Below, piece by piece: positions 12,166 through 41,580 of a stretch of DNA of 64,000 bases. The stretch covers positions 9,936,001-10,000,000 of the forward strand of contig CM069876.1 of assembly GCA_036172665.1 (NCBI GenBank), read 5' to 3'. Position numbers and translations under genes: made by a program. This stretch comes from Prosopocoilus inquinatus (Eukaryota > Arthropoda > Insecta > Coleoptera > Lucanidae). The stretch's first letter is position 1. Every line of letters starts with the position of its first letter. The notes below the pieces were generated by a model, which was given only the letters and a program-made list of their open reading frames with translations, searched no databases and was not told the DNA's origin.

Positions 12166-12215
12166 AACTTGGATTGAAATAAATAGTGAGAAAACCCCTC
12201 GACCACATTAATTCA

Positions 12216-12276
12216 CTGAAAGCGAATACGTATTTCGGTAACGAAGTTACCATCTTCAGCGCTAAACTGATATCAG
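12216..12276 (-). ncRNA. Hammerhead ribozyme core, minus-strand arm of the palindrome
   Basis: Exact mirror image of the plus-strand core at 12283-12343. CUGAAGA maps to 12259-12253 and the predicted cleavage lies beside 12225. Same reservations as the plus-strand copy. Confidence 0.55.
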
Positions 12277-12282
12277 TTTAAA

Positions 12283-12343
12283 CTGATATCAGTTTAGCGC
12301 TGAAGATGGTAACTTCGTTACCGAAATACGTATTCGCTTTCAG
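12283..12343 (+). ncRNA. Hammerhead ribozyme core (type I, PLE type)
   Basis: The core order is helix I strand GCG, CTGAAGA (12300-12306), helix II GGTAAC-TTC-GTTACC, GAAA (12323-12326), palindromic helix III ATACGTAT (12326-12333), then T at the cleavage position (12334) and CGC closing helix I. A second helix I pairing CTGA/TCAG is available further out. A loop-less palindromic helix III implies activity as a dimer. Departures: one extra U between CUGAAGA and helix II, and U rather than C at position 17, so activity may be weak. Confidence 0.6.
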
Positions 12344-12430
12344 TGAATTAATGTGGTCGAGGGGTTTTCTCACTATTTATTTGGATTACAGCCACAGGTT
12401 TTGTGTTGCTTTGTGAAAACTTGGATTGAA

Positions 12431-13189: not shown

Positions 13190-14927
13190 CCACAGTGGAT
13201 GCCAAGATTAACTTTCTCAATAAGAATCTATCATTATTGTTGAATATCCACGCCCCCTACGTAATTTCTCATCGCCAGCTCCTTGGGTAACGGATAATTT
13301 GAAAGCTAGGATGAACTTGCGAGCTGGGCCTTGCAGAAATTTAAACAAACAAGAGATCAAAGTGATTGGCTTCATTATAAGGAGCTACGTAACTGGACCA
13401 CAGCAGCTTGCAGGCGCGAAAAGAAAATCTACTTCAACACACACTATAGTACTACTAACTGAGCTGATTTTTGGAGTGATTTGAAAAAGTTAGGCATTGG
13501 TAGCAGAAAGTCGACTTCGTTACCTGAACACTTAACATATCAAAACGACCTAAATCATTTTTTTATTGAGTTTGAACCTGTCATGGACAGCAACTACTCT
13601 CTGCAATTTTTACCGCAACAAGAACTGGTCAGTTTTCAATTTTTCTCCGGTTACTGAATCCGATATCTTAAATGTAATGTCTGAAATCAAATCGAGGGCA
13701 ATTGGTTATGATGGGCTAGGTATATTTCATTTATCTCTTTGTCTGCCTTATTTATCTAACGTAGTTTTTCATATATTTAATTCTTGTATATCGCACTGTG
13801 TATTTCCTACATGCTTGAAAAGCGCCTATGTTATACCGTTACCGAAAGTCAGTAACCCTCAGACGTTTAGTGATATTCGACCAATTAGCATCTTACCAGC
13901 ATTAAGCAAAGTCTTTGAAAAAATTATTGAGAAACAAATGAGGGATTACGTAATAAACAATGACATTTTACCTGTAGTGCAATCGGGTTTCAGATGGGGT
14001 CATAGCTGCAGCACAGCACTTTCTTTGTATTAATCTCAATTTTGAAATATGTTGGCTTTTCGGAAAATGCTACTGTTTCAGATTTCGTGGTGACAGACAG
14101 AGGAGTACCTCAGGGGTCAATCTTGAGCCCTCTTTTATATTGCCTATACGTTTCCAATTTCAGTTCAGCTTTTATGAATTGCAAATTTCATTTTTATGCA
14201 GATGATGTGCAAGTTCACAAATCTTTTCATCTATCGCAGCTACTTCAAGCATTGAATGATATTAACTCAGATCTTAAGAGACTTGCTGTTATCTCTAAAG
14301 AGCATTGTTTGAGTTTAAACCTAGCGAAATCGAAGTTAATCTTTTTCGGTCCCACAGAGAGGGAAGAAGCTGCAAATCGCGTACACATTACTCTGGGGGG
14401 CTTAAGATTGACGCATGTAAGTGTTGCAAAAAAACCTTGGCTTAACTATAGACTCCACTCTGAGATTTAGAGAACATGTTTCCAGCATTGTTAGTAAAGC
14501 CTACATAGGACTTAAATTGTTATACAGAGTGCGACACGTTTTTAATCAAAAAACTAAAATTAGTCTATGTAATTCATTCATTTATCAAAATTAAAGTACT
14601 GCGATATGATATATGGCGCTTATTGGACTCCGTATGCACTACAAGGTTACAACGTGTTCAAAATGCCTGTATACGATTTATTTTTGGATCGCGTAAGTAC
14701 CACAGAGTTATTCATAGATTAAAAGAATTAGGATGGCTGACCATGGTAAACTCTCGTACTATGCATGCTGCTTGCTTTTATTTTAAGATCTTGAAGCTAT
14801 AATGTCTTCCGTACTTGTATCCAAAAATATCTTACCGAACTGATATCCATAACTTGAATCTGAGATTCAAGGGTTTAATGACGCCACCGAACCGTTTCTC
14901 TGAAATTGTCAAACGATCTTATCGGTA
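13190..14927 (+). mobile_element. 5'-truncated Jockey/CR1-like non-LTR retrotransposon
   Basis: Fragments of an ORF2 protein run in order along the plus strand. The end of the endonuclease-to-RT linker is at 13200-13560 (NFLNKNLSLLL, then WTTAACRREK). Reverse transcriptase follows at 13566-14470 and the C-terminal connection at 14470-14927 (RVQNA-like and LKELGWLTM patterns), the latter frameshifted. The 3' end is cut by a minus-strand element whose tail starts at 14928. Numerous frameshifts and stops show it is dead. Confidence 0.8.
13566..14470 (+). pseudogene. Reverse transcriptase of a non-LTR retrotransposon, broken
   Basis: The first frame (13566-14033) carries the N-terminal RT blocks, including DIRPISILPALSKVFEKIIE and the QSGFR..HSCSTAL block. 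The second frame (14042-14470) carries RGVPQGSILSPLLY and the catalytic FYADD motif. The usual stretch with the first catalytic aspartate (DFSKAFD-type block) should lie between the two frames but is missing, so there is an internal deletion as well as a stop. RT activity is not possible. The motif set fits the Jockey/CR1 group. Confidence 0.85.
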
Positions 14928-19199: not shown

Positions 19200-19684
19200 A
19201 CAGATGCTAATTATTAAGTCTTTTTAAAGCAACAACAATTTACAAATTAATAGTTTTCGAAGTACTGCCACTTTTCGGTTTTGAAAATTTCGAACTTTTT
19301 ATATTTCTCGCTAAAATTTAAATAAACTAACTACATATTACTTATTTATTAATGCTGATTAGATCAATCTAAATTAATAATACAAAGTCACTTCTGTCTG
19401 CAAATGGTAAAGCTGTCTCGCGAAAGTTAAAAGGAAGTCGCTATACATATAACAGTTATTAAAATTCTTGTTGTATTTTGTAGTTTATTTTTATTTTTTT
19501 AAACATATAAAATAGCGACATCTTACTATCGCTTTTTGACCTAACATTGCAGTAGGATAGACAAATTGAAGCGGGATTTGCTCCTAATGAGTCCCCCATG
19601 CAAGGCGGCCATGCTTGCTGTCAAAGCATAATGAAAGATTTTAGAAAAATTTTGTGCAAATCGTTTTTGATTGCAGCGAGAACC

Positions 19685-19749
19685 TCGAGCAGCTTCTGGA
19701 CAGCTGTTTCAGCCCTGCTTGGGGCTTCTTCAGGAGAAACGCAGCTCGA
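19685..19749 (-). ncRNA. Hammerhead ribozyme, antisense unit
   Basis: On the minus strand the order is CTGAAGA, helix II AGCCC-loop-GGGCT, GAAA, palindromic ACAGCTGT, C at the cleavage position (19699), then CAGAA for helix I. The 5' helix I strand reads TTCTC instead of TTCTG, so the base pair next to the core is lost. Activity is probably reduced. Confidence 0.65.
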
Positions 19750-19894
19750 CATTCCCGCTGCAGACCAAAAACGACTTGCCCAATTTATTCGCAATTGCGA
19801 TGTAAGAATGATGAACAATGACAATTCAATTCATTCAATTCAATTGCAGTTGCGAATAAATTGGGCAAGTCGTTTTTGGTCTGCAGCGGGAATG

Positions 19895-19959
19895 TCGAGC
19901 TACGTTTCTGCTGAAGAAGCCCCAAGCAGGGCTGAAACAGCTGTCCCGAAGCTGTTCGA
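19895..19959 (+). ncRNA. Hammerhead ribozyme, first sense unit
   Basis: Core CTGAAGA at 19911-19917, helix II AGCCC/GGGCT, GAAA at 19934-19937, palindromic ACAGCTGT (19937-19944), cleavage after C19945. Helix I is TTCTG against CCGAA, with one mismatch compared with the second sense unit. Confidence 0.7.
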
Positions 19960-20206
19960 GGTTCTCGCTGCAATCAAAAACGATTTGCACAAAATTTTTC
20001 TAAAATCTTTCATTATGCTTTGACAGCAAGCATGGCCGCCTTGCATGGGGGACTCATTAGGAGCAAATCCCGCTTCAATTTGTCTATCCTACTGCAATGT
20101 TAGGTCAAAAAGCGATAGTAAGATGTCGCTATTTTATATGTTCATCATTCTTACATCGCAATTGCGAATAAATTGTGCAAGTCGTTTTTGGTCTGCAGCG
20201 GGAATG

Positions 20207-20271
20207 TCGAGCTACGTTTCTGCTGAAGAAGCCCCAAGCAGGGCTGAAACAGCTGTCCAGAAGCTGCTCGA
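20207..20271 (+). ncRNA. Hammerhead ribozyme, second sense unit (best copy)
   Basis: All conserved parts are present. Outer helix I is TCGAG/CTCGA, internal loop CTACGT/GCTG, inner helix I TTCTG/CAGAA, then CTGAAGA (20223-20229), helix II AGCCC-CAAGCA-GGGCT, GAAA (20246-20249), helix III ACAGCTGT and cleavage after C20257. The layout is type I with a loop-less, self-complementary helix III, which pairs between two copies rather than within one, as in other retrozymes and PLE hammerheads. Confidence 0.8.
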
Positions 20272-20329
20272 GGTTCTCGCTGCAATCAAAAACGATTTGC
20301 ACAAAATTTTTCTAAAATTTATTTTTTTA

Positions 20330-21194: not shown

Positions 21195-21345
21195 CTATAA
21201 CAGCGACATCCTACGATCGCTTTTTGACCTAACGTTGTATAAGGATTGACAAACTTAAGCCAGTTTGCTACATAATAAGTCACCCCATGCAAGGCGGCCA
21301 TGCTTGCTGTCAAAGTGTAATGAAAGTTTTATGAAATTTTCTCTA
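21195..21345 (-). repeat. Fragment of the 312-bp hammerhead unit, antisense
   Basis: Shares AGCGACATC-TACGATCGCTTTTTGACCTAAC and GCAAGGCGGCCATGCTTGCTG blocks with the antisense unit at 19.5 kb, with diverged bases between. The part holding the ribozyme is not included. Confidence 0.75.
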
Positions 21346-26416: not shown

Positions 26417-26429
26417 TGTTAACCCTATT

Positions 26430-26577
26430 AAATAGATAAAACAGATCTTACGATCGCTTTTTGACCTAACATTGCAGTAGTACGTCTCTGCTGACGAAGC
26501 CCCAAGCAGGGCTGAAACAGCTATACAGAGGCTGCTCGAAGTTTTCACTGCAATCAAAAACGATTTGCAACAAAATT
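26430..26577. mobile_element. Short insertion of the hammerhead unit, antisense joined to sense
   Basis: An antisense piece (to about 26480, with CGCTTTTTGACCTAACATTG) is joined directly to a sense piece with the hammerhead (26481 on). The whole is flanked by TGTTAACCCTATT (26417-26429) and TGTTAACACTATT (26578-26590), a 13-bp duplication with one mismatch. This repeats the antisense-then-sense order of the 19.5-kb array at an independent site. Confidence 0.7.
26485..26531 (+). ncRNA. Hammerhead ribozyme with changed but paired helix I
   Basis: CTGACGA (26491-26497), helix II AGCCC/GGGCT, GAAA (26514-26517), ACAGCTAT, A at the cleavage position (26525). Helix I is TCTCTG against CAGAGG: both strands differ from TTTCTG/CAGAAG of the 20.2-kb copy, yet pairing is kept (with a terminal U-G). 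One base of the helix III palindrome is mutated. Confidence 0.72.
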
Positions 26578-26640
26578 TGTTAACACTATTGTTTATGTTG
26601 CATAAACGTTTCTGGAAGTATTAAAAATCTATTTAACCCT

Positions 26641-37700: not shown

Positions 37701-38915
37701 AGAAAAATGCGAGAAATCATTTTGTCATGTCAGAATGATTCACCGTTCTATATTTAAAATACCTTTTTTATTTTAAAAGATTGAGCAAAAAAAAAATGTT
37801 TCATGAAAGTTGGTTTGAAATATTAAAGGTACAATCTTATTATTTCTAAGACCTCGATTTTCAATTGTTTCCAGGAGACGACTTTCTTCAGTTGTTTAAA
37901 CAGAATGTTGTATTGCTAAGGATGGGATACAGAAATATTCGTATCTCAAAAGATAGTAAATAGTAGCAAGTGAATTTTATATAATATATTTTAGGGTACG
38001 GTCCTGTTTATTATTTGATACACAAATGAAAGTGGCGACTCGTAAAAACTCAGTATTAGGGCTATGGTAAAGCGTCAAAATTCCTGTAGAAAATGACTTC
38101 AGGATTGTTTAATGATCTTATTTCAGGAGAAGATGAATCAAATATTTAATAACAAATTGGTGAAAAATTATAGATCTCCGAACACTTTTACAAGATTTCA
38201 ATTTTGGCTGCTTTTTATAAATTCTGTTCCACTGTGTGGGGGCTCGAATGACTGTCTGGTTTTTGATCCCTTTTGGGTTTAAATTAAAAACTTTACGAGA
38301 ACATTTCAGATAAAAATACTATTTTTTTTTAATATAGAAATATATTAACAAAAACGTACAGGGTGTTGCATTGATGAATGCAACATAGGAAAGCGATTTA
38401 CATGTGCAGTTTGAGAATTTTTCATTTGTTTAGATTCAATATGTTTAAAAAAAATTACGATATTCAATTTATAGCAAACTGTTAGCACGGCCTTCATTAG
38501 TGAATGTTAAAATGAAATTTCGTTTCGACTTACCAACGCTGGCTGAAATCTTTCTTGAAACACAGAAGTTAGATTAAAATTCATAAACGTTTGGTTACGA
38601 TTTAATTGGTTATCAAAACTAAATAAGAGACACAGCGAACAATTGTTTCTTCATCCGCGAAATTATTTACAAACTGTGGAAAATATACTGGGAAAACGAG
38701 GAAAAAAATAGGAACGTGTAAATAAGTCAGGAAAACTACACTGGAAGAAGTCCTTTTTGGTCTGCTCCCGCCTTCATTAAAGAAAGGCGCAAGCGGGGGC
38801 ATCATCCGGTGAATTTTCATACGTCTGGAAAATCCCTAAGCGATTGCACAATTGTGTGCAACGTTGCACTTCTGCAGCAAGACTTCACTGTTTCTAACAC
38901 TGCGCGCGCGACCAG
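37701..38915. other. Intergenic, nothing recognised
   Basis: AT-rich. An ACAGGGTGTTGCATTG motif at 38359 is another member of the ACAGGGTG terminus set. Confidence 0.4.
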
Positions 38916-39237
38916 GCACCGTATTCTCGAATCGAGCGACAAGAGTCGTATGCGAAAATGACGTCAAAATGATGCAATTCTCGAACGATTTGTGTAGTTT
39001 TGTATAAGAGTCTACGTCATTTTGACGTCATTTTCGCATGCGACTCTTTCCGCTCGACTTGAGAATAGGGCCCCAGGGAACGTATTCTCGAATTGAGCGA
39101 CAAGAGTCGCATGCGAAAATGACGTCAAAATGATGCAATTCTCGAACGATTTGTGTAGTTTTGTGTAAGAGTCTACATCATTTTGACGTCATATTCGCAT
39201 GCAACTCTTGTCGCTCGATTTGAGAATAGGGCCCCAG
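38916..39237. repeat. Palindromic MITE, two head-to-tail copies of 161 bp
   Basis: Copy 1 (38916-39076) and copy 2 (39077-39237) are nearly identical. Each is a hairpin: GTATTCTCGAATCGAGCGAC on the left against TATTCTCAAGTCGAGCGG on the right, continuing through AGAGTCG, GCGAAAATGACGTCA and AATGA. Each unit ends GGGCCCCAG. The period is exactly 161 bp. Confidence 0.85.
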
Positions 39238-40734
39238 ATCTTCCAGAAATTTGACGACGCAATTTTATTCTGACCTGTACTTGTGTGTACGAGTTATAAT
39301 ATTATGTAATTGCCACTTAGATTTTATAAATCATTGCATTGTAAATATATAACAGAGACATTATTTTGAAAGTCAACATTGTATGACGACAGAAAGAGTT
39401 CGAAAAATATAAAGAATTTTCGGTTGAAATGAAGCCCTTTCTACTGTTGACGTGACGAAAAACATAAAGAAAGTTTCATTTTTCATTTTAGTGTTTGTAT
39501 AGTTTATGAAATGCAGCCTGTACTTTGAAAATATTTTCTCAATATTTCCTAGTGGTGTTCAAATAAACATAAAAGGATTTATTTTGTACCACGGAAGTTT
39601 GACACCATACAGGGTGAATCAGAATAAGTGTCGGACTCGTTAAAAGCGTATTCACTAAGGTCATGCAAGTAAACAGCAAGAAATAAATCTATTAGAAGAA
39701 TTTCAAAAATCAACCTCTTTTGAATCATCTCCCAGCATATTTGTCAATGTTTCAAAGGCGTTACTAAGTCCAGTATCGAAAAAATAGGCACTTAAAAAAC
39801 ACAGTTGATGGCCCACCCGTTATTTATTACTATTTTCTGTGAAACATTTATAACTAACAAAATATACAGTGAAGCATAATAAAATGTGTTTTAAAAAATT
39901 GCGTGGAATTACAAGTGAAATTATCGCCACATATTTCAGAAAACGTCGGCTCCCTTTTAAATAAAGTCGACGGTGCTCCGAGCTATTTTATGATGTAATG
40001 CAAGTGGAGGGTAATTTAGTCATTTTGAATAATATATGAGTGCACGACATTTATTTGCTCCGGACAGAATTGCCTTGCGAATGTTATTTGTAAAAGTAAA
40101 ACATTAATTCACCACTATAACATGCGGTGTTAATTTCATTAGGTTTTATAACGTATGATATATGTACACTAAATGACTGCTATTAAATTAGAGATAATTG
40201 AAGATTAAATATCGATAGCGAAAAATATTTTTAACCCCAAAAATTTAATAATAATTTTAAAATTTTTTACATGCACCGTATGTGCCAAAGACAAAATATG
40301 TAAGAAGTGAGACTTTTAATAATAAATCTCCGGGGAATTTATTTTGCGGTGGGCATGTCGGGTAAGTTTTCCTTGTATATCGAAATACGTAGGGCTGGCC
40401 TTCCACCGTTAACCTTGTGAAGGGATTGTGAAGGGATTTTTGTATTATATCATACACTGAATGTGTAATATTTCATGACCTAAAAATAATCCTGCAGCAA
40501 AGTACTAAGATTACGCTGTGTTATTGCATCCCCCTGGTTTATATTGGATAAATAAGGGTAAAGTGATTGTTAAATTAAGTTCTTAGGGTAACTTGTATAA
40601 TGAACCAAGTCTTCTTAAAAATAATTTTATTATTAAAATTATACCGGGTGTTTAGGGTGTTTATGCCATATTTACTAATATGGGAATTTTTTAGTTTTGA
40701 TGTATTGAAAATAAACTACACAGGGTCTTCACGG
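39238..40734. other. Intergenic, nothing recognised
   Basis: AT-rich. ATACAGGGTGAATCAG at 39607 is a mariner-like terminus motif without a partner. Confidence 0.4.
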
Positions 40735-40900: not shown

Positions 40901-41381
40901 ATTTATTACTTTTATTGTAAGCATTTCATAAAATATGTTACAATAAAGAAATTATTATATCAGCCTCTTCATTGACATTCGTCAATCATTACAAGTCAAC
41001 ATTTTAATTTTGTTGTAAATGATAATCTTGAAACTGAAAACAAAAACAAACGAAAGTTAACGAAACTATTCACACAGTACACCATGAACCGTTTGTTCGC
41101 ATTTCTATTGCAGCGAAACATGAATTCGCCGCAAGATTTCAGACGATGGATCATGTCTATTTTCTTCTTCTAAAATTTGTTGTGCAACTATTTTTTATAT
41201 CACCATTTAACTGATAAGACTGACGATCAAAGACTATATCAGAAAATTAGTTTTTCATAAAAAATGAAATTAAAGATGACATCAAGGTGGAAAAACAAAT
41301 GCTGATCAAGAAAAGATTTTTACAATAAAATGTGTCTTTAAAATTAAAAATTTTCCAGTTTTAGGACCCCAGAGCTTGCTG

Positions 41382-41580
41382 CAAGTCGGATTGCAGTGTG
41401 GCTCTCAAAAGCGTCCTCTGGATAGCTATTTCGGCCCTAACTGGGGTTTCATCAGCAGACGAGTAGCTCGAGAAATTACATAGCAATCGATTCGCTTGAT
41501 TTAAGGTCAAACCCGCCGCTTCGCGATGGCGCGCCTTAAACAAAATATGGAGCTTGTTATGGAGTATGATCACCAATCTG
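41382..41580 (-). repeat. Diverged copy of the hammerhead unit
   Basis: Minus-strand order matches the 312-bp unit around its ribozyme: CTCGAGCTAC, hammerhead core, then ACTGCAATCCGACTTG. Parts further away have diverged beyond recognition. Confidence 0.6.
41414..41462 (-). ncRNA. Hammerhead ribozyme, partly decayed
   Basis: CTGATGA (41455-41449), helix II reduced to CCC/GGG with two A-C mismatches next to the core, GAAA (41432-41429), palindromic ATAGCTAT, C at the cleavage position (41421). Helix I keeps four pairs (TCTG/CAGA). Probably inactive now. Confidence 0.55.

Follow-up and report, generated by a model that had tools for sequence, protein, structure and literature searches.

The metazoan non-LTR retrozymes of coral, mussel and axolotl have also been reported from insects, and retrozyme target duplications longer than 4 bp are noted (accessible sections of PMC7229834). 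The same sections name Penelope-like elements (PLEs) or LINEs as possible retrozyme helpers, and a PLE helper has been proposed because retrozymes and PLEs are found together and have a type I hammerhead and a tandem arrangement in common (PMC7229834 and the accessible sections of PMC7761336). As for the PLEs themselves, both target strands are cut and extended in the Anolis element PAc, where reverse transcription has two internal start sites that are apparently the same for either strand (PMC11167929). In Adineta vaga, PLEs have inverted pseudo-LTRs that lie mostly head to head, duplications of 8-10 bp and a tail that is optional at one inverted end (PMC3846280, accessible sections). Neither head-to-head retrozyme insertions nor a rule that both start sites are used in every insertion was found in PMC11167929 or in the accessible sections of PMC7229834, PMC7761336, PMC6466107 and PMC3846280.

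The family described here was found in a 64,000-nucleotide stretch of the Prosopocoilus inquinatus assembly GCA_036172665.1 (contig CM069876.1, positions 9,936,001 to 10,000,000; the window). A preliminary description of the window had distinguished five dispersed hammerhead copies; these are real, but it went unremarked that positions 19502-20317 (plus strand) form one insertion of 816 bp with an inverted first half. In this insertion, which has relatives elsewhere in the genome, an antisense block is followed head to head by a sense block, with inverted arms at 19502-19801 and 19843-20142 that match at 98%. The antisense block (19502-19817, minus strand, 316 nt) holds one unit, is 98% identical to the sense unit and reaches site B (RNA phase ~197) with its outer end, and the sense block (19843-20317, plus strand) holds 1.5 units and has its outer end at phase ~60 (site A), phase 1 being the nucleotide after the cleavage site. 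The predicted cleavage sites of the sense block, 19945/19946 and 20257/20258, are spaced 312 nt apart, and the coordinates thus bear out the earlier statement that two sense copies lie head to tail at this distance. The unit between them, 19946-20257 (plus strand, phase 1 at 19946), is the predicted circular monomer. The insertion is bordered by the same 12 letters, TTTATTTTTTTA, at 19490-19501 and 20318-20329; this target-site duplication is weak by itself because of its low complexity, and it is backed by the 12-13 bp duplications of the family. The unit has a GC content of 43.3%, low as in metazoan non-LTR retrozymes, and appears to be non-coding, with no Pfam match in frames crossing the retrozyme copies. 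A coding origin is unsupported, since the Pfam search and a search for homologues of a 114-aa sense frame at E 0.01 were both empty.

Two further copies lie nearby. A second insertion of 148 bp (26430-26577, plus strand) consists of a short antisense piece from site B and a sense hammerhead piece that terminates near site A, and its flanks, TGTTAACCCTATT and TGTTAACACTATT (26417-26429 and 26578-26590), are one mismatch apart. The core-less fragment that had been noticed at 21.2 kb is genuine; alignment to the unit places it at 21196-21340 (minus strand) as one antisense block that spans roughly the stretch between sites B and A, and a convincing duplication was absent from its flanks on inspection. 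At 13554-14467, the window also holds a reverse transcriptase remnant (RVT_1) in two overlapping frames, LINE-like by eye.

When up to 3 mismatches were allowed, five type I hammerhead cores (CUGANGA, helix II, GAAA and NUH, with an open helix I) were found on the two strands of the 64-kb window and none in 100 shuffles, at the 19.7, 19.9, 20.2, 26.5 and 41.4 kb positions given in the preliminary description. A canonical core with a pairing helix I had been attributed to all five; this is true of the intact copy at 20.2 kb, whereas the other four bear defects. The intact hammerhead (20217-20263, plus strand; core 20223-20254, cleavage predicted at 20257/20258) is the only copy in the window that passes a strict descriptor with 0.05 matches expected by chance. 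Helix I has a C-C mismatch at its base in the antisense copy (19702-19733, minus strand; H17 at 19699) and a U-C mismatch at its second pair in sense copy 1 (19911-19942, plus strand; cleavage predicted at 19945/19946), and the core of the second insertion (26491-26522, plus strand) has a broken helix III pair. The core at 41424-41455 (minus strand; CUGAUGA, H17 at 41421) has diverged by 3 mismatches, and its helix II is weakened. This hammerhead, within 41330-41530, possibly belongs to a separate, older family; its helix III reads UAGCUA, changed on both sides relative to CAGCUG.

A covariance-model search, proposed earlier as a check, remained below threshold. Scanning the whole window with Rfam gave zero matches at the gathering score and no hammerhead up to E 10; when positions 20170-20310 were scanned alone, RF00163 (Hammerhead_1) matched 20217-20263 over the full model at 30.6 bits, with an E-value of 3.3e-6 over the 141 bases scanned, under the gathering score of 34. 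The miRNA matches inspected from the permissive scan were dismissed because their positions are those of inverted repeats; one region that draws such sub-threshold matches, 38912-39240, is a 161-bp tandem duplication with inverted repeats. In the fetched genomic loci, BLAST detected 151 complete hammerheads, a set biased toward intact copies; the 135 of these that are equal in length show hardly any variation in the core. Viral contigs searched with the core pattern gave zero exact matches.

Searching the 649.6-Mb assembly with 19502-20317 yielded at least 272 matches (40 of 1472 first-look candidates scored), and the 39 loci fetched among the matches listed gave 45 element calls. Exact 312-bp tandem spacing was present at other loci of the genome, so the suggestion that a lack of tandem copies elsewhere might refute the retrozyme reading has failed. 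The order antisense-left and sense-right was seen in 38 of the 45 elements and a single block in 6, which include one duplicated pair; L043 ran off its locus. Both ends could be classified in 33 elements, of which 33 were heterotypic, with one end at each site, and 0 homotypic, in a sample that includes two duplicated locus pairs and was retrieved with a query that is itself heterotypic, such copies being favoured among the top matches. Four of the remaining 12 elements, cut at a locus edge and including L043, were heterotypic too once extended. The exceptions are L020, which has four blocks, and L022, which has one end at phase 138. Target duplications scoring at least 10 were found at 25 of 41 elements (four that run off a locus being left out of the count) compared with 1% of 797 mismatched flank pairs, and were absent from the other 16. 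End positions were analysed in antisense-left and sense-right elements only, leaving out the duplicates L026, L035 and L039 as well as L043 and the other edge elements; in the 25 head-to-head elements with exact duplications of at least 10 bp, the outer ends fall within phases 52-67 at site A and within 191-207 at site B. Their duplications are 10-15 bp long (12 or 13 bp in 20 of 25), longer than 4 bp as in described retrozymes.

Inner junctions are compatible with a uniform distribution of phases (KS p 0.52, 30 elements) and 46 of 60 cDNAs are longer than one unit, in a sample of elements with exactly two blocks and classified ends from which L026, L035, L039 and L043 were left out. Fold-back self-priming of one cDNA was rejected, as the inner phases of the two blocks are mostly unmirrored and the outer ends differ. 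The largest array (C1:22598853-22615985; G000, L058 and L060) has about 55 units arranged head to head, of which the antisense part takes up about 14.7 kb and the sense part 2.4 kb, with ends near phases 199 and 54 and with TTTAAATTATAGT in both flanks. At 312 bp, the unit falls within the ~150-450 bp of retrozyme tandem repeats with type I hammerheads, and its insertion footprint is of the PLE type. It is not itself a PLE because an RT-EN ORF is absent. Among 10 chromosome ends read, (TTGGG)n telomeres with short tandem repeats alongside were seen at 8 (L048, L050-L055 and L057); the motif is also reported from a lacewing and from beetles and is in keeping with an insect source.

Unit variation was compared within and between insertions, in sets that leave out L026, L035 and L039, blocks under 150 nt and units under 100 positions and in which the enlarged array (BIG) replaces L043. 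With the largest array left out, two units of the same block differed by 1.69% (154 pairs), units on opposite strands of an insertion by 1.07% (125 pairs) and units from different insertions by 2.89% (11,737 pairs); including it, the values were 1.16%, 1.22% and 2.68%, respectively. Of 30 insertions, 2 had a cross-strand divergence above the between-insertion mean; within-block divergence was above it in 6 of 36. Units are identical within some insertions (L027, L030 and L033). In 17 of 31 insertions, all units that covered a given position, whichever their strand, carried the same rare variant (present in 5% or less elsewhere), these units often numbering just 2-6, and in 10 of the 17 one such variant was missing from all other elements; the remaining 14 had no shared rare variant. 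Partial rare variants were singletons in 28 of 31 insertions. Three insertions had rare variants common to several but not all units; the largest array is one of them and may have expanded after insertion, given that these variants are common to subsets of its units. Taken with the low divergence within insertions, the rare variants found on both strands agree with a single 312-nt template for each insertion, the simplest form of which is a circle, although they stop short of proving circularity.

The circular minimum free energy predicted for 19946-20257 was -113.7 kcal/mol, with a z score of -8.6 relative to 200 dinucleotide-shuffled sequences, a value in keeping with a stable self-paired circle. 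A long arm carrying the hammerhead is predicted, with phases 3-48 paired to about 228-275, and both start sites are unpaired in the minimum-energy fold (phases 50-69 and 190-210). Over 60 distinct units, the unpaired probability was 0.723 and 0.715 at the start sites vs 0.35 overall, so ranked that their accessibility is moderately special (top 7% and 11% of windows). The similarity of the two start regions to each other ranked no higher than the top 15% of window pairs and was discounted. The alignment backs the fold weakly: of 94 consensus pairs, 1 has changed on both sides, a change present in 12 of the 34 sequences. An active hammerhead was not predicted in the minimum-energy fold of the monomer circle; in the two units folded, the CUG of the core is base-paired to the helix III CAG, and cleavage may therefore depend on a different fold, on a dimer or on a protein. 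The same pairing could protect the circle, and the hammerhead may become active in a non-minimum or dimeric fold.

A search of the genome with the GIY-YIG profile matched 150 of 150 candidates scored, the best 150 of 2232; among the matches listed, many share one score, and about 47 minus-plus (head-to-head) pairs were recognised by eye, the rest being unpaired. One copy of this PLE, a young family, encodes an intact 787-aa ORF with a reverse transcriptase (RVT_1, 1.6e-14) and a C-terminal GIY-YIG domain (9.9e-7), and this ORF has full-length homologues of up to 58% identity. The PLE tandem junction includes a hammerhead-like motif (CTGAAGA, helix II, GAAA) with the palindromic UACGUA, for which there was no recognition by Rfam. 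In the window, positions 12179-12417 are a palindromic head-to-head terminal copy of this PLE, 97% identical to the tandem-junction sequence L064, with ends at J418 and J452 and a flanking 13-bp duplication, AACTTGGATTGAA (12166-12178 and 12418-12430). It bears two hammerhead-like motifs absent from the preliminary description, a CTGAAGA core at 12300-12306 and an antisense counterpart. Ends were scored in 23 PLE insertions, namely 20 listed pairs whose ends had not been seen beforehand, two short pairs and the window copy at 12.2 kb. Each of the 23 ends once within J415-422 and once within J451-464, the two sites being separated by 39 nt, and all 23 have a duplication scoring 9 or more, vs 0.6% of 506 mismatched pairs; head-to-head order was chosen for 22 of these insertions, and ends and duplications were unselected. 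The duplications measure 11-18 bp, most commonly 12 and 13.

The two PLE sites flank a predicted stem-loop, as retrozyme sites A and B flank a structured domain, although the spacing is about 139 nt in the retrozyme vs 39 nt in the PLE. Six pairings of retrozyme and PLE start sites included none with significant sequence similarity, and overall similarity was marginal (p 0.07 and 0.04), so that homology is not claimed. A tie between the two families is suggested by a common footprint, not by a common sequence. Structure of the insertions, fixed ends, duplications, shared variants and a helper candidate whose footprint matches are all read from the assembled DNA.

Because the insertion scars of the two families match, it is suggested that the PLE copies retrozyme RNA circles into new sites, and we consider it probable that the 312-bp family is a non-autonomous metazoan retrozyme moved by the PLE protein of the same genome from both target strands. 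The 312-nt unit would be transcribed as a multimer and cut to monomers by the type I hammerhead, and the monomers would then be circularised. Reverse transcription would start in two A/U-rich segments on either side of the structured domain, site A (phase ~58) and site B (phase ~197). The PLE protein would take up the circle and cut both target strands about 12-13 bp apart, and both DNA ends would prime on one RNA, giving one cDNA from site A and the other from site B. Each cDNA could run from a fraction of a lap to several laps round the circle, and joining of the two cDNA 3' ends mid-element would leave an array in head-to-head order that terminates once at each site. In this scheme, we infer cleavage, circularity, the identity of the enzyme and the use of one RNA per event. 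We lean slightly toward a wider proposal, that PLE retrotransposition is obligately paired: the enzyme, probably a dimer, would engage two start sites flanking a stem on one RNA, one for each target strand, with no site used twice; the retrozyme circle would present both, and each insertion would record two rolling reverse transcription tracks off one circular RNA.

Linear multimeric transcripts of genomic arrays might instead have served as templates, with hammerhead cleavage and circles uninvolved in insertion. An array of about 55 units could supply long transcripts, the predicted minimum-energy fold differs from the active hammerhead, and a PLE hammerhead mutant kept its insertion activity in vitro (PMC11167929), so cleavage may be dispensable. 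A mutated array should, however, pass on the differences between its units, whereas the partial rare variants seen here are nearly all singletons and rare variants are often common to all units on both strands of an insertion; we regard linear templates as unlikely. The inverted segments and duplications could also be produced if a LINE mobilised the retrozyme by target-primed reverse transcription with frequent twin priming, and fragments of LINE-type reverse transcriptase do lie in the window at 13.5-14.5 kb. Twin priming should start the inverted part at variable RNA positions and invert just a fraction of copies, whereas in the present family both outer ends are fixed and 33 of 33 fully classified copies are inverted. 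The footprint is moreover common to the local PLE, the one element family compared. LINEs are named beside PLEs as candidate helpers (accessible sections of PMC7229834), and twin priming yields inverted L1s with flanking duplications (PMC2837659, accessible sections), yet mobilisation by a LINE appears to us quite improbable.

The least credible rival would make the repeat a satellite, or a foldback DNA element, that spread through recombination and kept its hammerhead as a relic. Near-perfect inverted repeats, tandem arrays and the subset-shared variants of the largest array would agree with such an origin, to which we give hardly any weight: the insertions are dispersed, duplications accompany 25 of 41 elements, outer ends are fixed with inner junctions scattered, and units are identical within the three insertions named above. 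The retrozyme-like reading of the preliminary description thus holds by sequence, in its tandem copies, duplications, near-invariant core and unit identity within insertions; the head-to-head structure of the insertions and their match to the PLE of the genome are new beyond it.

Retrozyme and PLE scars of a single genome agree in duplication length, in head-to-head order and in the rule of one end per start site, a shared footprint that can be checked in any genome assembly. With one 787-aa protein and one 312-nt RNA, the pair offers a two-component system for biochemistry, and it bears on how animal retrozymes move, a matter left unsettled in the accessible sections of PMC7229834 and PMC7761336. 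Like plant LTR retrozymes (PMC4918200; PMC7229834, accessible sections), the 312-bp family is a retroelement with hammerhead-processed RNA, circular by inference here, but the plant elements have type III hammerheads, LTR features and 4-bp duplications, whereas the hammerhead of the 312-bp family is type I. With PLEs that have pseudo-LTRs (A. vaga, accessible sections of PMC3846280; Anolis PAc, PMC11167929), the retrozyme shares head-to-head terminal repeats, target duplications, two reverse transcription start sites, a tail at one inverted end and an upstream hammerhead. It differs from them in that an ORF is absent, its sites lie about 139 nt apart instead of 30-40, its cDNAs circle the 312-nt unit repeatedly, and its duplications are mostly 12-13 bp, compared with 8-10 bp in A. 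vaga. The closest likeness is to the metazoan non-LTR retrozymes in the accessible sections of PMC7229834, which likewise have type I hammerheads, repeats of ~300 bp from dimers to multimers, GC below 45-50% and a highly self-paired predicted circle. Those sections describe tandem repeats, with no mention of head-to-head order, two fixed ends or cross-strand variants, and the palindromic helix III of the 312-bp family, CAGCUG, is unlike that of the retrozymes they describe. The family therefore fits the published metazoan non-LTR retrozymes, and its way of inserting is new.
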